Positions 520 to 53,594 of a DNA stretch of 64,000 nucleotides are shown here, one piece after another. The stretch is from Thermoplasmata archaeon. GTDB taxonomy: Archaea > Thermoplasmatota > Thermoplasmata > Methanomassiliicoccales > Methanomethylophilaceae. The position numbers and the translations under genes are program-made. The stretch is taken from contig SUSV01000005.1 of the NCBI GenBank assembly GCA_015063245.1, positions 1-64,000 on the forward strand, read 5' to 3'. The first letter of the stretch is position 1, and each line of letters begins with the position of its first letter. The notes below the pieces were generated by a model that made no database searches, was not told the origin of the DNA, and saw only the letters and a program-made list of their open reading frames with translations.

Positions 520-550
520 AAAAAAATGTAAGTGCCAGGGGTGCCCTGGC
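520..550 (-). terminator. intrinsic-type terminator of the amino-acid operon
   Basis: Read on the minus strand just after the UPF0210 stop codon, GCCAGGG and CCCTGGC form a 7-bp hairpin with a 3-nt loop, followed within about 10 nt by a run of seven T. It closes the operon that starts near 5.25 kb. Confidence 0.6.
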
Positions 551-557
551 TATGTTT

Positions 558-1922
558 TCAGTTCTTGAAGCTGTGAATCGGTGCAGGGATCCTTCCGCCG
601 CGATTTACGAAGTCTGCGCACCCGAACTTGTTGACGGGCATGATCCTCGCTTCTCCGAGGAGTCCTCCGAACTGGGCGAAGTCACCGACATCCTTTCCGA
701 TGACGGGGATGAGCCTTACAGCAGTGGTCTTCTGGTTGACCATTCCGATGGCCATCTCATCAGCGATGATTCCCGCGATCGTCGTAGCAGGTGTGCTTCC
801 GGGGATGGCGATCATATCGAGCCCCACAGAACAGACGCAGGTCATCGCCTCGAGCTTCTCGAGGGTGAGCGCTCCAACCTCGGCGGCCTCTGCCATCGAT
901 CTGTCCTCTGTCACGGGGATGAACGCTCCGGACAGTCCTCCGACATATGATGATGCCATCACACCGCCCTTCTTGACCTGGTCGTTCAATATGGCCAGTG
1001 CGGCGGTCGTGCCGGGTGCTCCGGCGTATTCCATGCCCATCTCGTGGATGATGTCGGCGATACTGTCACCCACAGCAGGAGTGGGGGCGAGGGAGAGGTC
1101 GACGATACCGAACGGGACGCCCAGCCTCTTCGATGCCTCCTTGGCGAAGAGCTGTCCGACCCTTGTGACCTTGAATGCTGTTTTCTTGATCGTCTCGCAG
1201 AGCGTCTCGAAATCCTTGCCGCGGACCTTGGACAGCTCGTATTTCACGACACCGGGGCCGCTGACACCGACGTTGATGACGCGGTCGGCCTCGGTGACCC
1301 CGTGGAACGCTCCGGCCATGAACGGATTGTCGTCAGGGGGGTTGCAGAACACGACGAGCTTCGCGCATCCGAGGGAGTCGTTCTCCTTGGTGGCCTCTGC
1401 GGTCGCCTTCACGATATCCCCCATGAGCCTGACAGCATCCATGTTGATACCGGTCCTGGTGGAACCGAGGCTGATGGATGAGCACACGCGCTCCGTGGTC
1501 GACAGCGCCTCGGGGATGGACTCGATCAGGAGCCTGTCCCCCGTGGTCATCCCCTTCTGGACCAGGGCGGAATATCCTCCTATGAAGTTGACTCCGACCT
1601 TCTTGGCCGCCTCGTCGAGCGTCTTCGCGATCTTGACATAGTCTTCGGGCGTCCTGCACGCGGCACCGCCGATCATTGCGATGGGGGTGACGGAGATCCT
1701 CTTGTTGATGACAGGCACTCCGTATTCGCTGCCTATCTCGTCGCCGACCCTGACAAGGTCCTTGGCGGATTCTGTGATCTTCTCGTAGACCTTCCTGCAG
1801 AGGGCGTCGAGGTCGGGATCGATGCAGTCCAGAAGGCTGATGCCCATCGTTATGGTCCTGACATCGAGATTCTCCTGGGCGACCATGTTGACGGTCTCGA
1901 AGGCCTCGTTGAGCTCTACCAT
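558..1922 (-). CDS. UPF0210 / DUF711 (PFL-like) family protein
   Basis: The 454-residue protein has the length and character of the UPF0210 (DUF711, COG2848) family, a pyruvate-formate-lyase-like fold of unknown function. The frame opens with ATG at 1922, four bases after the stop of the ACT-domain gene (1927-2199). UPF0210 and UPF0237 ACT genes are neighbours in many bacteria and archaea, which suggests that the ACT protein senses a ligand for this one. It is the last gene of a minus-strand operon with homoserine dehydrogenase and citramalate synthase. A terminator hairpin follows directly. The biochemical role is not established; family assignment is secure, function is not. Confidence 0.85.
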
Positions 1923-1926
1923 GGGA

Positions 1927-2199
1927 TCAGATCCTGTGCATCATGTCGAAGATCTCTTCATGCTGGGCCTTGATGATGCAGCCCACCTTCTCGCCCACCT
2001 TCTCCAATCCGGCGTTAAGATCCGCCGTGGATCCGGTGTATCCGTCGGTGTCGACGATCATCATCATGTTGATGAATCCCTGCGATGTGGTCTGCTTGAG
2101 GTCCACGATGTTGATGTTGTTCTCGGCGAAGAAGTTGCAGACGGTGGCGATGATGCCAACCCTGTCCTTCCCAACCAATGTCACGATGGTCTTGCTCAT
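1927..2199 (-). CDS. ACT-domain protein, UPF0237 family
   Basis: This 90-residue protein is a single ACT domain of the UPF0237 (COG3830, GcvR-like) type. It opens with the typical first beta strand ([16 protein letters not shown]) and contains the NIVDLKQT segment. ATG at 2199 is preferred because GGGTGA lies about 6 nt upstream; an in-frame GTG at 2208 would overlap the cimA stop. The position between cimA and the UPF0210 gene suggests small-ligand sensing, probably an amino acid, as in other ACT domains. The ligand is unknown. Confidence 0.85.
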
Positions 2200-2204
2200 G
2201 TTTT

Positions 2205-3764
2205 TCACCCGATCATTAACTTGTATTCTATGGCGTCCACCAGTGCGATCAGACTGGCCTCGACGACGTTGTTCGAGACACCGACGGTCGTCCAGTTGTG
2301 CTTCCCGTCGGTGGACCTGATGAGTACGCGAACGCCTGATGCGGTGGCCGATTTCTCATCCAGGGTACGTACCTTGTAATCTGTGAGTTTCATCTCGTTG
2401 ATCTCCGGGAAGAACTTGAGCAGCGATTTCCTCAGCGCCTTATCCAGGGCATTGACCGGACCGTTCCCGTCCGCCGCCGTCTGCTCCAGTATCCCTTCGG
2501 AGTCTATGACCTTGATGCTCGCCTCGGTATCCATGTCGCCGAGACGGTTGTCGATGAGGATCTTGAATCCCTCGACAGTGAACTTCTGCTTCAGCTCCCC
2601 CCTGAGCCTCTTGACCAGGAGCTCGAAGCTGGCATCCGCTCCCTCGAACTGATATCCCTTGGACTCCATGTCCTTGATCTTGCTGGTGATGTCGGGGGTA
2701 TCGTCCCCGCACTCCAGGCCCAGCTCCTTGAGCTTCTCGACGATCCCGGCCTTGCCGGCCATATCGGATACGAGTATCCTCCTGGAGTTGCCGACCAGCG
2801 ACGGGTCGATGTGCTCGTAGGTGCGGTTGTTCTTCGTGACGGCGGAAATGTGCACCCCGCCCTTGTGGGCGAACGCGCTGTCCCCGACATACGGCATGTC
2901 CGCACGGGGGGCGATGTTGGCTATCTCGCCGATGGATTTGGATAATGCAGTGAGCTTGGTGAGGTCCATCTCGGACGTCTCGAAGCCCGTCTTGTGGACG
3001 AGGTTGGGGATCACGGTGCAGAGATTGGCGTTGCCGCATCTCTCGCCCAGTCCGTTGATCGTTCCTTGTACCATTGAGCATCCGCTGTCTACGGCCGCGA
3101 GCGAGCATGCCGTGGCCAGGTCGGAGTCGTTGTGGCAGTGGATCCCCAGAGGGACATCCACAGATAGGAGCGCATCCTCCACCGCTTCGGATACCTCCGC
3201 GGGGAGAGATCCTCCGTTCGTATCGCAGAGGACCAGCCATTCCGCCCCTCCGGACTCCGCAGCCCTCAGGACGTTGAGCGCGTATTTCCTGTCCGATTTG
3301 TATCCGTCGAAGAAGTGCTCCGCGTCGAATATGACATGCTTGCCCGATCTGACCAGGAATCTGATGCTGTCCTCCACCATGTCCAGATTCTCGTCCAGAC
3401 CGATGTTCAGCGCCTCCTTGACCTGGAAATCCCATGTCTTGCCGAAGATGCAGCACCATTCCGCTGGGCACTCGACCAGCGCCCTGAGGTTCTCATCCTC
3501 CTCTGGCTTCAGCCCGAACCTGCGTGTGCTCCCGAAGGCCACAAGCTTGGTCCTTTCCGTGCGGATGCCTTCCAGTTCTCTGAAAAGGGCGTCATCGGTG
3601 GGATTGGAGCCGGGCCATCCGCATTCGACGAAATCGATACCGAACGAATCGAGCTCACGGAGCACGTCCAGTTTGTCCTCGGTGGAGAAGAGCACTCCCT
3701 CCGTCTGCGCTCCGTCGCGCAGGGTTGTGTCGTATATCACGACCTTCTCGGACAACTCATTCAC
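2205..3764 (-). CDS. cimA: citramalate / 2-isopropylmalate synthase family enzyme
   Basis: The 519-residue protein condenses an alpha-keto acid with acetyl-CoA. It has the HMGL-like TIM barrel opening with YDTTLRDGAQ (residues 11-20), the metal-binding IHCHND motif (208-213), and a C-terminal LeuA-type allosteric domain (about 390-519). Length and N-terminus match the CimA class: (R)-citramalate synthase, isoleucine synthesis from pyruvate. Other members of this superfamily (LeuA, homocitrate synthase) cannot be fully excluded. The GTG start at 3764 overlaps the hom stop codon by 8 nt (GTGAATGA), so translation is probably coupled. Neighbouring hom supplies threonine, the alternative isoleucine route. 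Confidence 0.85.
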   Translation of the reverse strand: MNELSEKVVIYDTTLRDGAQTEGVLFSTEDKLDVLRELDSFGIDFVECGWPGSNPTDDALFRELEGIRTERTKLVAFGSTRRFGLKPEEDENLRALVECPAEWCCIFGKTWDFQVKEALNIGLDENLDMVEDSIRFLVRSGKHVIFDAEHFFDGYKSDRKYALNVLRAAESGGAEWLVLCDTNGGSLPAEVSEAVEDALLSVDVPLGIHCHNDSDLATACSLAAVDSGCSMVQGTINGLGERCGNANLCTVIPNLVHKTGFETSEMDLTKLTALSKSIGEIANIAPRADMPYVGDSAFAHKGGVHISAVTKNNRTYEHIDPSLVGNSRRILVSDMAGKAGIVEKLKELGLECGDDTPDITSKIKDMESKGYQFEGADASFELLVKRLRGELKQKFTVEGFKILIDNRLGDMDTEASIKVIDSEGILEQTAADGNGPVNALDKALRKSLLKFFPEINEMKLTDYKVRTLDEKSATASGVRVLIRSTDGKHNWTTVGVSNNVVEASLIALVDAIEYKLMIG

Positions 3765-4758
3765 CGATTCTCTTATCCATGATGGCGACGAGATCGCTCA
3801 TGATCGCCGATGCCGTCTCGAGACGGCCTGCACCCTTGCCGGATACGGTGATGGGTCCTGCGTATTCTGTGATGATCTCTGCCGTGTTCAGTGTTCCCGG
3901 GAGGCTGAGCGGGTGTCCCTTGGGGATGAGCCTGGGGGCGACCTCCAGCTTCGTGGCCGAGACCTCTCCGATGAGCCTGATGACCATTCCGTTGGTCTTC
4001 GCCAGCGCGACCGCGTCGGCGTTGATGCTGGTGATTCCGGTGATGTCCACATCGTCGAAGGTGGCGTTCCTTCCGAATATGGAGTTGGCCAGGATGACGA
4101 CCTTGCATGCGCTGTCGTAACCCTCCACGTCGCTGGTCGGATCGGATTCTGCGTATCCCTGCTGCTGGGCCTCCTTGAGCGCCTGCTCGAAGGGCTGTCC
4201 GTTGTCCATCTTGGACAGGATGTAGTTGCATGTTCCGTTGAAGATTCCCCTGATGGACTTGATCTTCTGTCCTGCCAGGTCGCTCTTGCAGAGGTTGATG
4301 ATGGGCATCGCGCCTCCGACGGTTCCCTCGAAGCGGATGAGGCATCCGTTCTCCTCGGCCAGATCCATGATCTCCCTGTACTTGAGGGCGAGCGGGCCTT
4401 TGTTGACGGTGACGACGTCCTTCTTGTGGTTCAGGGCGTACATGATGTTGTCCATCCCGACACCGCCGTCCTCGACGTCGGTGGGGGTGACCTCTATGAG
4501 TATGTCGAAATCCACGGAGTCGAGCGCATCCTCGGGCTTGGTGTAGGTCCTGTCGCCGACCCTGCCGGTGGTCTTCTTGTTCTCGAGGAGCTCCGCAGCA
4601 TCCATTCCCTTCTTGTCGAAGCAGTATGACTTTGAGTCCATGGCCCCGACTATGAGCAGAGGCTGTCCGTAGCGCTCCTGGAAGTAATCCTCCTTCTCCG
4701 CGATGACCTGGGCGATTCCCTGGCCAATCGTTCCGAATCCGCATATGAATGCTTTCAT
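3757..4758 (-). CDS. hom: homoserine dehydrogenase, without its own ACT domain
   Basis: The 333-residue enzyme reduces aspartate semialdehyde to homoserine in threonine/methionine synthesis. The Rossmann nucleotide site GFGTIGQG is at residues 7-14. The catalytic-domain signature GIFNGTCNYI is at 171-180, followed by the DVEGYDSACKV segment. The usual C-terminal ACT domain is absent; a separate ACT gene (4761-5252) lies directly upstream. ATG at 4758 is chosen because it starts two bases after that gene's stop and begins exactly at the Rossmann strand; upstream in-frame starts would overlap the ACT gene. It overlaps cimA by 8 nt. Confidence 0.93.
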   Translation of the reverse strand: MKAFICGFGTIGQGIAQVIAEKEDYFQERYGQPLLIVGAMDSKSYCFDKKGMDAAELLENKKTTGRVGDRTYTKPEDALDSVDFDILIEVTPTDVEDGGVGMDNIMYALNHKKDVVTVNKGPLALKYREIMDLAEENGCLIRFEGTVGGAMPIINLCKSDLAGQKIKSIRGIFNGTCNYILSKMDNGQPFEQALKEAQQQGYAESDPTSDVEGYDSACKVVILANSIFGRNATFDDVDITGITSINADAVALAKTNGMVIRLIGEVSATKLEVAPRLIPKGHPLSLPGTLNTAEIITEYAGPITVSGKGAGRLETASAIMSDLVAIMDKRIGE

Positions 4759-4760
4759 TT

Positions 4761-5252
4761 TCAGACCCCCCTCACGTAGGTGACGTTTGCTCTCTTGCAT
4801 TCCCTCCTCAGGATTGCATCTATCTTGTCCAGATTGTCCTCGTAGCGTGCTTTGACGGATATGAGGCTGGTGTGGCTTGCTGTCTTGATCGATTTGGACG
4901 AGTATCTGACGTTGACCTCGTCCAGCGTGGTCGCCTCGTTGATCTTCTTGAGGAGACCCTCGATGTACTGTGCGTTGACATCCCCGATGAGGATGTAGTC
5001 CATGGTGAACGTCTCATGGACCGATCCGAGGTTGGAGATGATTATGTCCTTCCTCTCCCAAAGGTCCTTGAGTTCTTCCAGATGCCTTTCGTCGACCTCG
5101 AATGTGAGGTTCACGCAGATCCTGTGATCGATGATCTTGTCACGGTTGTGAACCACCCCGAGAATGTTACCGTCCACAAGGGATATGGGCTCAAGGGATC
5201 CTATAAGCTGTCCGGGTAAGTCGTTGACGAAAAGTTCGGCGTTAACTATCAT
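4761..5252 (-). CDS. ACT-domain regulator of homoserine dehydrogenase (COG2061 type)
   Basis: This 163-residue protein has two ACT-like halves (about 1-75 and 85-163), as in COG2061, annotated as an allosteric regulator of homoserine dehydrogenase. Its stop lies 2 nt before the hom start codon. Because hom lacks an ACT domain, the pair probably forms a split, feedback-sensitive enzyme, likely responding to threonine or a related amino acid. The ligand is an inference. It is the first gene of the five-gene minus-strand operon; an AT-rich stretch near 5270-5300 (ccttattaagg) is the probable promoter. Confidence 0.8.
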   Translation of the reverse strand: MIVNAELFVNDLPGQLIGSLEPISLVDGNILGVVHNRDKIIDHRICVNLTFEVDERHLEELKDLWERKDIIISNLGSVHETFTMDYILIGDVNAQYIEGLLKKINEATTLDEVNVRYSSKSIKTASHTSLISVKARYEDNLDKIDAILRRECKRANVTYVRGV

Positions 5253-5427
5253 ACTTCACCAATTATGATTCCCCATTGTCATAACCCCTTAATAAGGATA
5301 CGCGCGCGTCCAGCGGTATTTTTGTAAACGAAATACGCAGGTTTGAGGGGTATTCATCATTCGTTCCAATCGCTGTATCACGGCAAAGTTATAATGGTGG
5401 GTACTCAGTTAACTCGTCGGAGTCAGC

Positions 5428-6910: not shown

Positions 6911-9900
6911 ATGAATGATAGGGATGCCGCATTGAACCGCCGTGTTATCGATGCGGCATCCGCTCTTACAGATTTCGATCCAGATTTAGGTCTCATCGAC
7001 CCCGAAGTTTTCGAGAAGCTGCTCTTCCCTCATAAAGACATAAGGGATGAGGCCAGGAAGCGCTCTAGAGGATTCCTTTTCAGGCTGGGATTCGTCAATA
7101 AAGAATTCAAAACCAATGTAACGGCATTCCTCAAGAGATACGATGAGTATCTGGACAAGGTAAGGGCGCACAACATCCCTATTGTGACGAAGCGCTTGGT
7201 CGACCTGGAATCAGAACTGTCCGGTTATGACTTCGGCACGGTTCTAATAGATGAGCAGGGTCTCAATGGAATCGTAAAGACATTTGCGGACGCCAAGAGG
7301 GATTTGCTCGAACAACCGAAAGAATACCTGCACATGCTGGGTGTGGATGACAAAGGTCTCAGGCCTTACATCGACCGGTTCCTAGACTCCTATGCTGTTT
7401 TTCCAGACAGGGTGAGGGAGCATAACATCCCTATCGTGAAGAAACTCCTTTCCGATGCGTCCGAGAGAATGGGCAGATGCGATGTCGGCCCTATTCTGAT
7501 CTATCCCAAGGACGAGGATATTGCTCTTGCCCCGTATACTGTGCTCAAGACCGATATTCTGGGTCGCTCCAAGGACGGTGCCCGTCTCCTCGGTCTTGAT
7601 GATGAGGCCGTCAAGTCTGGCATCGGTCTGTTCCTCAAGAGGTATGAAGACCACCCCAAGGTGGTCAGGAGCCATAACATCTCTGTCATCAGAAACCGCA
7701 TCAGCGACGCGGCAAGCGCCCTGTCAACCTGCGATTCCGAGGAACTGATCGATCCCGCGGATTTCGATGCGATCCTTTCCCCTTATACAGAATTGAAGGA
7801 AGATCTGTGCGATCCCTCCAGTGAGTATCATGCGGTATTCAGGATCGACTAGAAGGAGATGAAGGATGATATCGGGTTGTTCCTGAAGAGATACGACGGA
7901 TATCCTGATTTGATCGGGGAGCATAACGAGGAGATAGTCAGGAAGCGCGTGGTAGAAATCGATTCACGCATCAATCCCGTAGAGGGCCGCAACCTGGATC
8001 GTCAGCAGTTATCATGCATCGCCTACGATACCAGGACCAGATTGGTGATCGCGGGTGCTGGCACAGGTAAGACCACAACCATCGTAGGGCTTGTGAAGGA
8101 TCTGATACTGTCGGGCAAAGCGGCCCCTCATGAGATCCTTCTCCTCTCATTCACCAACGCTTCGGTGACCGAATTGAGGGGAAGGATTGCGGAGGAGACC
8201 GGCGAGAAGATCGAGGTCTCGACCTTCCATCGTCTGGGCCTCAAGGTTATCGCCTCCGTGAACGGAAAGGTCCCTAAGGTCTCCAATGCCGATCTCACCG
8301 ATGTCATCCTTGAAGGCATCGAGAGCAGGAAGACCGATCCAAGCTACGTCAGGATACTGAATCAGTACATGGCCTACGATTTCGTTTCCGATAGGGACGA
8401 GGGCGATTTCGAGACAGGTTCCAAGATGAACGACTATCTCATGCACAATCCGCTCTATACCCTGAACGGGGAGAAGGTCAAGAGTTACGGTGAATCAGAT
8501 ATCGCCAACTTCCTTGCGCTGAACGGCGTCCCGTATGCCTACGAGGAATCCTACAAGTTCGATACCAACGATTCACAGTTCGGCCAATATCATCCGGACT
8601 TCCATATCAAGGGAACGGACATCTATATCGAATACTTCGGGATCGACAAGAACGGAAATGTGGCTCCCTTCATGACTGATGCCAACCCCAATGCGGCGGA
8701 GGAGTACCGGGAAGGTATGGAATGGAAGAGGAGGCTGCACGAGGAGAAGGGAACAGTCATGATCGAGCTGTTCGCCTATCAGCGCTCGAACGGAACCCTT
8801 CTTCAGTCTCTCGAGGAACAGCTGAAGGCGCACGGCGTCGAGCCGATCGAGACATCCCCGGAGGAGATCTACGACAGGATGTTCGGAAAGGATGAGCGTA
8901 AGCTCAAGACGCTGGCATCCACATTCGCTACGGCGATCCTCCTCATCAAAGGATTCGGCAGACCATGGGATGAGGTCTTCCCCAGGGACTACGGTTTCCT
9001 CCAAAAGAAGAAGATGGAGAGGCTGGAATCGATAATCAGGCCTCTTTATGATGATTATCAGAAGCTCCTGCAGGACAACAACGAGATAGATTTCGAGGAT
9101 ATGCTGAATACGGCAGCCGGTCTGATACGCGACGGGAGACATATTCACAATTACAGATACGTCATCGTCGATGAGTATCAGGACCTATCCCGTTCAAGGT
9201 ACAATCTTCTCAAATCCATGCGCGACTCAAAGGAGTACAGGCTATTCTGCGTCGGAGACGATTGGCAGAGCATCTATCGTTTCAACGGGTGCGATGTTTC
9301 ATACATCCTCGATTTCCCGAAATACTGGGGGCCGTCCACGATCCGCATGATCGAGACTACATATCGTTTCTCAGGGGAGATCCTGGAGAAGAGCTCAAAC
9401 TTCATATGCAGGAACAAGGCACAGTTCCAGAAGCATCTCGTCGGAGCCAACGGCAACAAGGGGAGCGTCATCCCCATCATCGCTCCCAGCAGCAGCGGGA
9501 TACGCGACCGGATCGCTGAAGCCCTGATGAAGGTACCTAAGGGGAAGAAGGTGCTGTTCCTCGGAAGGTACAATCATGACGTGAACGTGCTCTCCGAGGA
9601 TGGATTCTCATGGAAGCCCTTGGTGGGCGATAAATCGATCACCGTGAAGTACAGCGGACGTCCGGATTTGGATATGAGGTTTATGACCATCCATTCATCG
9701 AAGGGATTGCAGGCGGATGTGGTGTTCTCACTGAACAACATGACCGGGAGCTACGGCTTCCCGAGCAACAGGCCGGAGCCTCTCATAATCACCCTTCTCC
9801 TGGGCGGAAAGAGCACTCAGTACGATGAGGAACGCAGGCTGTTCTATGTGGCCATGACCCGTGCCAAGGAAGCGGCATACATAGTGACAAAGAGCGGTCA

Positions 9901-10072
9901 TCAATCGGATTTCTTCAAGGAGATATTCCCGTTCAATTATGGAAAGGGAAGGGCGTTCATCTGTCCGATATGCGGAGGGGTGCTCGTCGCCAGAAACGGG
10001 AATTCCAGCATGTTCTATGGTTGCTCCAATTATAGCTCGAAGGGTTGCAAGTATACCCGTAGGATGAATTAA
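6911..10072 (+). CDS. UvrD-type nuclease-helicase with in-frame amber codon (candidate pyrrolysine)
   Basis: A single 1053-residue protein is proposed, with TAG at 7850-7852 (codon 314) read through, probably as pyrrolysine. Residues 1-316 hold four degenerate repeats of about 80 residues, each ending in a pattern like FLKRY...HN. The amber codon falls in repeat 4 at the place held by D or N in the other three, and the repeat continues downstream in the same frame. The helicase core follows: Walker A AGAGTGKTT (381-389), an inserted PD-(D/E)xK-like segment (PDF about 562, E574 in IYIEYFG), Walker B VDEYQD (about 753-758), GDDWQSIYRF (782-791), motif VI, and a C-terminal topoisomerase-type zinc ribbon (about 1020-1050). 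A TATA box near 6884 places the transcript start at ATG 6911. The alternative, two separate genes, would cut repeat 4 in half and leave ATG 7859 with AAGGAG at zero spacing. Confidence 0.82.
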
Positions 10073-10156
10073 GCGCAGAATTCGATCCTCAAAACGGAAC
10101 GCCTTATTGCAGAAAGAGCGAAAGCGATGTAATCAGGAATGTTAGATAAGAAATAG

Positions 10157-10230
10157 TGCTCCCGACGGGATTCGAACCCGTGTTGAAGCCTCGAGAGGGC
10201 TTCATGATTGGCCGCTACACCACAGGAGCA
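10157..10230 (-). tRNA. tRNA-Glu (CTC)
   Basis: The minus strand folds as a full cloverleaf: acceptor TGCTCCT/GGGAGCA, anticodon stem AAGCC/GGCTT with loop CTCTCGA giving anticodon CTC, and T-arm ACGGG TTCGAAT CCCGT. No intron. CCA is not encoded. Confidence 0.93.
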
Positions 10231-10281
10231 ACATTCCACAACATAGAGAAGTAGTAGATAAAGATATCTGATTACCTCATA

Positions 10282-11067
10282 TCAGAATTCTGGAGGGCGG
10301 ATTGCTGGCAGTCTCTTGTGCTCCATCAGGCTTACCTGTCTGCGTATGTCAGAAACCTGTTCCTTGGGCAAGCCTGTATCCGCAGCGATCTGCGAATCGG
10401 TCCTGTCCTGCTCCATATCATACAATATCCTGTCGAGGTCATCGTACTTGATCCCCATCTCAGACTCATCGGTCTGACCCTCCCACAGTCCAGCGGACGG
10501 AGGCTTATCGATGATCGGCTGAGGAACTCCTATGAGCTTGGCGATCTGCCTGACCTCGGTCTTGTACATGTTGGCAAGAAGGGTAACGTCGCATGCTCCG
10601 TCCCCGAATTTGGTGAAGTATCCCATCATAATCTCGCTCTGATTGGATGTTCCGACGACCAGATACTGCCTCTTCTTCGCAAGATTATATAGCACTATCA
10701 TCCTGCATCTCGCAGATATGTTGCCTCTCTCCAGAGGGGTCTCCGCATCGGAGAGCAGGACCGCTGCCAGAGCATCGACGGCGGGGCCGACATCGACTAC
10801 CCTGAACTCCGTTCCCCACATCGAAGCCAGTTCAGAAGTGGTCTTGTAATCCTCGGCAGGGGTCACCCTGGAAGGCATGAAGACGTTGAGAACATTCTTC
10901 GGGCCCAGCGCATCCGCGCAAAGCTTCGTGACAACAGCGGAATCTATTCCTCCGCTCAGTCCTATCACCACTCCTTTGGCATTCGCCTTGGCAACTGTGT
11001 CCTTGATGAATTTCTCGAGATTGCTCACATCGTCCTGTGTGATCTTTGGAATGGCCACTTCCGACAT
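10282..11067 (-). CDS. nadE: NH3-dependent NAD+ synthetase
   Basis: The 261-residue enzyme amidates deamido-NAD to NAD. It has the PP-loop GLSGGIDS (residues 36-43) and the family segments ISARCRM, GTSNQSE, FTKFGDGACD and KPPSAGLWEGQTDESE. There is no N-terminal glutaminase domain, so it uses ammonia, as usual in archaea. ATG 11067 is chosen over upstream in-frame starts (11118) because the TATA box (ttatatg, centred near 11095) lies 27-28 nt before it, implying a leaderless message. Its promoter abuts the tRNA-Ser gene, which is transcribed away. Confidence 0.95.
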   Translation of the reverse strand: MSEVAIPKITQDDVSNLEKFIKDTVAKANAKGVVIGLSGGIDSAVVTKLCADALGPKNVLNVFMPSRVTPAEDYKTTSELASMWGTEFRVVDVGPAVDALAAVLLSDAETPLERGNISARCRMIVLYNLAKKRQYLVVGTSNQSEIMMGYFTKFGDGACDVTLLANMYKTEVRQIAKLIGVPQPIIDKPPSAGLWEGQTDESEMGIKYDDLDRILYDMEQDRTDSQIAADTGLPKEQVSDIRRQVSLMEHKRLPAIRPPEF

Positions 11068-11090
11068 CGTCCACGGAATCGCATGGTGGC

Positions 11091-11098
11091 CATATAAC
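11091..11098 (-). promoter_or_regulatory. TATA box of nadE
   Basis: The minus-strand sequence CGTTATATG is centred about 27 nt upstream of ATG 11067. This is the archaeal TATA-to-start-site distance, so the transcript probably begins at or next to the start codon. Confidence 0.55.
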
Positions 11099-11159
11099 GT
11101 CTTGGTCAGGGAGGCCACAAAAAGCCTTTTATAACGTCATAAGTTCCCCCTCATTGCAC

Positions 11160-11245
11160 GCCGAGATGGCCCAGCCCGGTAAGGCGCGAGCCTGGAAAGC
11201 TCGTGGGCGCCTTTGCCCTCGGGAGTTCAAATCTCCCTCTCGGCG
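11160..11245 (+). tRNA. tRNA-Ser (GGA)
   Basis: The acceptor GCCGAGA/TCTCGGC, anticodon stem CGAGC/GCTCG with loop CTGGAAA (anticodon GGA), a long GC-rich variable arm and the T-arm GGGAG TTCAAAT CTCCC form a class II tRNA. Discriminator G at 11245, followed by a short T-run (ctttta). Confidence 0.94.
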
Positions 11246-11495
11246 CTTTTATACCATCTATCTGTGTCACGTTGCCTAGCCGATCCTCAATTATGAGTTC
11301 GAGGATAATGGCCTCTTTGCCCGCGTATCGACGTGGACAAAATAGTTCTGCATCTCCTCTGGTACTTCTCATCTCATTTCAGGCATCTGGACACGCCATC
11401 TCATTCTCTGAATGGACATTAACGGGCCTTAACAGAGTTGAATTCCGCTCAAAGCGGTGTATCTATTATTAATAGGGCAGATAATCCGAATCCTC

Positions 11496-11906: not shown

Positions 11907-12010
11907 GATTCTCCCGAAGCGGTAGGAAAAATTGACCGCTCAATATTGTTGAGTGGTTGAAAACTCGAATGATTTTTCTTGTTAATAAGGTTTTATTCTC
12001 GAAACCATAT

Positions 12011-52595: not shown

Positions 52596-53594
52596 ATGGT
52601 CAGATGCATCCGCGTGCTCAAGAGGGACGGAGAATCCGTCAGGACACGTCTCGTCTCAGAGGACCTTCTGGACCTCGATTCGAAGATACGCGCGGACGGG
52701 GATTATCTTCTGATCCCGGTGAGATGCGACTCCTATCCCGGTTACAAAGTAACCGAAGAGGATCTGGAGGTGCAGGAGCACAAGGCCCTCGACTACACCG
52801 AAGTCGTCGAGGTGCCAGATGAGCTCAGGCAGTATCTGCCCAGCTCTTTCGACATCGTAGGTGATGTCGCCATGCTCAAGGTGCCCGACGAGCTGACTGA
52901 ATACAGGCATCAGATAGGTGAAGCGCTGATCAAGGTCAACAGGAACATCCGTGTCGTCTTCCATGACTACGGAGTCAAGGGGGACTTCAGGATCAGGGAG
53001 CTAGAGAAGATTGCGGGTGAAGGCTCGTCGGAGACCATTCATAAGGAATTCGGAGTCAAGCTGTACACGGACCCGTCCAAGGTATACTTCAACCCGAGGC
53101 TCTCATCCGAAAGAGCCAGGATAGCCAAACTGGTCAAGGATGGGGAGACGATAATCGATATGTTCGCCGGTGTCGCGCCCTTCGGTACCGTCATCGGGAA
53201 GCTCGCCGATCCCAAGGTCATCTACTCCATAGACCTCAATCCCGAGGCGGAGCACTTCGCACGTCTCAACGCAGAGAAGAATCATATCGAATGCATCGTG
53301 CCGATGACTGGCGATTCGTCGAAGGTCATCTACGACCTGCCGATGGCGGATCGTGTGATCATGAACCTCCCGCAGATCGCAGACAGGTTCCTGGGCTTCG
53401 CCATGGACAGGATGAACCACGGGGCGTATGCCCACATGTACAAGATAATCGAGAGGGACTAGTTCCCCTCGTTCTGTGAGAAATTGACGGAGGAGATGGC
53501 CGCGAAGGGCCATAGGATAGAGATCCACAGCTCCGAGCTGAAGACCTACTCCCCCACCATGAGCGTCTACTCGATGGATGTCGAGAAGCTCTGA
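52596..53594 (+). CDS. trm5: tRNA (guanine37-N1)-methyltransferase Trm5 with in-frame amber codon (candidate pyrrolysine)
   Basis: The 332-residue protein makes m1G37 on tRNA. It has the Trm5 D1 N-terminal domain (about 1-70), the SAM-binding MFAGVAPFGT segment and the catalytic NLP motif (MNLPQ). TAG at 53460-53462 (codon 289) interrupts it, but the frame goes on for 43 codons to TGA at 53592-53594 with a typical Trm5 C-terminus (YSPTMSVYSMDVEKL). The real stop abuts that of the convergent dCTP deaminase. The protein ending at TAG would lack the last strands of the methyltransferase fold. A TATA box (GATATAAAC, near 52569) is 27 nt before ATG, implying a leaderless message. Confidence 0.88.

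Follow-up and report, generated by a model that had tools for sequence, protein, structure and literature searches.

Pyrrolysine is a conserved and catalytic residue of the methylamine methyltransferases MtmB, MtbB and MttB, and a 2025 report is said to describe archaea that read all of their TAG codons as pyrrolysine. 'Candidatus Methanomethylophilus alvus' has 16 predicted pyrrolysine proteins besides the methyltransferases, 1.6% of its stops are TAG, and low usage of TAG as a stop has been linked to constitutive pyrrolysine incorporation (PMC4153887). For the methanogenic archaeon ISO4-H5, 46 amber-containing genes are reported (PMC5011839). In the window analyzed here (the whole stretch of 64,000 nucleotides), a TAG codon interrupts a long helicase gene, and the organism almost certainly reads this codon as pyrrolysine, not as a stop. 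The product is very probably one protein of 1053 residues, belonging to the helicase IV/UvrD group, in which the TAG at codon 314 is decoded as pyrrolysine at a position that tolerates it.

Results

The frame at positions 6911-10072 of the forward strand, which also carries the Trm5b gene described below, has 1054 codons and homology on either side of its TAG. It ends in TAA and gives 1053 residues when the TAG at codon 314 (7850-7852) is counted as pyrrolysine. The initial annotation had described a single TAG splitting an otherwise open frame of this length, and recomputation agreed, as the TAG is the sole stop ahead of the TAA. With stop triplets at about 3.0% locally, 1053 codons in frame would contain no more than one stop by chance with a probability of about 4e-13, and codon-usage scores are alike on the two sides of the TAG (0.24 and 0.26). 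No PYLIS-like RNA structure was evident after the TAG (7850-7949, fold z = -0.12), and the same fold test after the TAG of the genome's own mtmB gave z = 0.06. Such a structure is a proposed enhancer of pyrrolysine incorporation and not an obligatory one (PMC4153887).

The TAG lies in the last of four repeats of about 80 residues at the N-terminus: repeat 1 at residues 9-92 (6935-7186), repeat 2 at residues 93-172 (7187-7426), repeat 3 at residues 173-258 (7427-7684) and repeat 4 at residues 259-342 (7685-7936). The annotation had also proposed four degenerate repeats of this length with the TAG at a D/N position of the fourth, and both points hold. Pairwise local alignments of the repeats gave z = 13 to 30 against 500 shuffles, with 21-31 identities across 75-81 columns, and the TAG column is occupied in repeats 1-3 by N (AAT), D (GAC) and D (GAT). 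In the predicted structure (mean pLDDT 78) all four repeats are helical, repeats 1-3 at lower confidence, and in a separate model of repeat 4 (pLDDT 87) the third helix, a long one, has residue 314 in its first turn. A search of the repeat domain against the PDB gave no significant match (best E 3.7). Every examined homologue with a detectable repeat has one copy upstream of the helicase whereas the window protein has four, and because homologues carry a single copy they correspond to repeat 4 plus the helicase. The four-fold repeat is the unusual part of this gene. From their position alone, it might be guessed that the repeats would lengthen the N-terminal helical arm of the helicase and perhaps bind DNA or a partner.

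The remainder of the protein is a UvrD/Rep/PcrA-type superfamily 1A helicase core (about residues 357-1005, 7979-9925). The Pfam UvrD helicase N- and C-terminal domains score above cut-off, the Walker A lysine and DE box are present, and profile and fold searches of the PDB found PcrA, UvrD and Rep; the protein has the defining features of a superfamily 1A UvrD/Rep helicase. The nearest NCBIfam model is DNA helicase IV (NF008276), whose equivalog cut-off of 543 bits is not reached by the 296 bits of this protein. Some 100 residues (about residues 523-625, 8477-8785) are inserted between helicase motifs, and in 25 sequences E528, D563 and E574 are conserved in 25/25 and K606 in 24/25. This residue pattern makes the insert look like a PD-(D/E)XK nuclease. 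The earlier label of nuclease-helicase is therefore secure for the helicase, through the Pfam domains, whereas its nuclease half is putative, as it comes from the residue pattern of an insert that matched no family. A topoisomerase-I-type C4 zinc ribbon at the C-terminus (residues 1017-1051, 9959-10063) has conserved cysteines and scores 27.3 bits, below the Pfam cut-off of 32. The PADLOC models for GajB and a DRT helicase match the protein through the common UvrD core only, so membership in a defence system is not proposed.

The helicase gene stands beside a variable region. A tRNA-Glu/nadE/tRNA-Ser block (10151-11246 of the window) is 98.5% identical to the genome G003, with 80% for the flank at 544-5264, and its orientation with respect to that flank is reversed in G003, G030 and G019. 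This suggests that the block is a recent transfer or contamination of the bin.

Homologues across the TAG codon

The search for homologues covered 60 related genomes and a collection of named genomes, and yielded about 90 homologues in addition to a paralogue from the same genome (L037). Where its 5' end is intact, a homologue begins upstream of the TAG column and reads through it. Across the 25 aligned sequences the column contains N, Y, S, G, E or K. The examined homologues have AAT, AAC, TCC, TCA, GGC or GGG there (AAT, AAC, TCC, TCA or GGC in the archaeal ones), sense codons of the kind that the initial annotation had proposed to look for in relatives. None of the examined homologues ends at the site. 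This includes the homologue (L042) of the PylS-negative relative G034, which crosses the site with AAC, so the truncation in pyl-lacking relatives that had been named as contrary evidence was not seen in this one. Archaeal homologues and the paralogue also align across the site. The earlier statement that sequence homologous to the other repeats lies on both sides of the TAG is correct as well. The gene thus combines an in-frame TAG, homology on both sides of it and sense codons in relatives, and its TAG column looks like a tolerant position. Separately, the homologue in G018 has an in-frame TAG of its own elsewhere, at residue 503 of the open frame, and a bacterial homologue (L093, Oscillospiraceae MAG JAFUHM010000047.1) has one at residue 664 of its open frame.

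These alignments also bear on the possibility that the TAG is a true stop, in which case a 313-residue repeat protein would be followed by a separate 737-residue helicase restarting at the ATG at 7859. That ATG sits six bases past the TAG, and neither half is interrupted, which makes a restart conceivable. However, it would cut repeat 4 in half, whereas all archaeal homologues with an intact 5' end begin with a whole repeat. The purine stretch AAGGAG abuts the ATG with zero spacing, unlike a working ribosome-binding site, and a restart would not explain the other TAGs of this genome, such as those in Trm5b, the GNAT protein and mtmB. A true stop is therefore considered quite improbable.

The paralogue is 61-62% identical to the window protein and has AAT at the TAG column. 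Since this TAG-free copy is present in the same genome, loss of the helicase gene could be tolerated, and the gene could be a recent pseudogene with a nonsense mutation. A pseudogene fits poorly with 1053 codons lacking any other stop or frameshift, with codon usage that is normal on either side of the TAG, and with helicase and nuclease motifs that are intact. As TAG serves as sense in other genes of the genome, its presence would not by itself inactivate this one. A pseudogene is regarded as even less probable than a true stop.

Pyrrolysine genes and TAG usage in the genome

Contig 5 (L006) of the source genome (G000) carries mtmB with a TAG, pylT, pylS, pylB, pylC and pylD in one run. The pylT gene is called as tRNA-Pyl (cta), and PylS (263.6 bits against a curated cut-off of 178), PylB (440 against 348), PylC (325 against 248) and PylD (192 against 150) all pass. 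The genes that the initial annotation had singled out for a genome search are therefore all present as a complete cluster, namely a pylT with a CUA anticodon, pylS and pylBCD. The mtmB that adjoins the cassette holds a TAG and matches MtmB along its full length. A scan of the window and of 400 kb of the genome revealed no other CUA tRNA. The genome G003, of the same genus and 96% complete, has no PylS match though almost all genomes of the genus have one, which could reflect either genuine loss of the gene or incompleteness of the bin.

Usage of TAG was assessed by codon-usage gene calling, because a count from longest ORFs was contaminated by shadow ORFs; the caller was purpose-made and simple, so its counts, from 480 kb or about a third of the genome, are approximate. 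Among 458 gene calls, 414 end in TGA, 36 in TAA and 8 in TAG. TAG thus ends 1.7% of gene calls, compared with 14.4% and 12.3% in two PylS-negative members of the family. Seven of the eight TAG ends run on into in-frame coding sequence, in the genes for the helicase, Trm5b, a TPR protein, a ferredoxin, mtmB, a 739-residue protein and a GNAT acetyltransferase. Pfam domains bridge the TAG in mtmB, Trm5b and the GNAT acetyltransferase, and the ferredoxin is a two-cluster type whose second Fe-S motif lies 3' of the TAG, its continuation being judged by inspection. An automatic criterion found continuation at 6/8 TAG ends and at 23/450 TAA/TGA ends, some of the latter being neighbouring genes that share the frame (Fisher p = 1e-6). 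Depending on the score cut, the ferredoxin is among these six or is the seventh, and the total is seven either way. The TAG at C9:41798 has an extension of just 10 codons that resembles non-coding sequence, and it may be a true stop. The 739-residue protein (L006:11767-13986 in G000:C5, TAG at 11989) is encoded immediately downstream of the pyl cluster and belongs to no known NCBIfam family. In the Pyl-positive genome G014, 4.3% of genes end in TAG and 0/5 TAG ends continue, so the habit of using TAG as sense may differ between species.

The same counts speak to a sequencing or assembly error at 7850-7852. An error can be imagined in that the TAG is known from one assembly of the species, possibly a single metagenome bin. 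However, the N and D codons of this column (AAT, AAC, GAT and GAC) are at least two substitutions away from TAG, and TAG interrupts several unrelated genes in this genome yet is nearly absent as a gene end. Of the alternatives to decoding as pyrrolysine, an error is the least probable.

The second amber gene of the window (52596-53594) encodes Trm5b, the tRNA guanine-37 methyltransferase, with an in-frame TAG at 53460-53462. This enzyme is normally essential for maintenance of the reading frame. The TAG is absent in all 19 relatives listed for this gene, of which 18 extend to the TAG column and carry E, D, A or Q. In this genome SELKTYSPTMSVYS, conserved at the C-terminus in the family, is retained 3' of the TAG, and no second match to Trm5b was found at E <= 1e-30. 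Judged by these comparisons, Trm5b is the clearest apparent case of a sense TAG in the genome.

Discussion

The initial annotation had proposed pyrrolysine at residue 314 as an inference, and we infer the same; the proposal gains support from the pyl cluster, the homologues and the use of TAG as sense in the sampled third of the genome. PylBCD would make pyrrolysine, PylS would charge tRNA-Pyl (CUA) with it, and this tRNA would read the UAG at codon 314 directly. TAG would have been largely cleared as a stop in this cell and would act as a rare sense codon, so that a TAG arising where change is tolerated, as at this helix start with its N, D, S, G, Y or E in relatives, could be retained without loss of the protein. 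The helicase probably tolerates this pyrrolysine and does not need it, since residues vary at the column and the surrounding repeat is an accessory part that includes none of the helicase or nuclease motifs. An ordinary tolerant site thus apparently accepts pyrrolysine, in line with a nearly neutral drift of TAG, as a sense codon, into the genes of these archaea. Genes such as Trm5b would need pyrrolysine to reach full length, and its synthesis could then not be lost. With slightly better than even chances, TAG in this species effectively stands for pyrrolysine and is almost never a stop, Trm5b-like genes depend on it, and its synthesis is unlosable even without methylamines. Standard gene callers would split amber-interrupted genes of this type.

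The window protein resembles DNA helicase IV (NF008276) and the UvrD/Rep/PcrA family in the sequence and predicted fold of its core. However, it falls below the equivalog level for helicase IV and carries additional parts, namely the nuclease-like insert, the zinc ribbon and the four repeats at its N-terminus. In MtmB, MtbB and MttB an in-frame TAG is read as pyrrolysine by the same machinery, as it would be in the mtmB of this genome, but the TAG column of the helicase is variable, unlike theirs, and no role for pyrrolysine is indicated. 'M. alvus' and ISO4-H5 share with this genome their order, a pyl cassette and a very low usage of TAG as a stop, and they likewise have in-frame TAG codons in many unrelated genes whose relatives carry sense codons. 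The present species is, as far as can be judged, neither of the two. No helicase is met among their amber genes in the available portions of PMC4153887 and PMC5011839. The helicase is a further example of a pattern already published for this order, that of amber codons in genes of many functions, and it adds, with Trm5b, a DNA-processing enzyme and a tRNA methyltransferase to the genes of the order that apparently depend on the 22nd amino acid.
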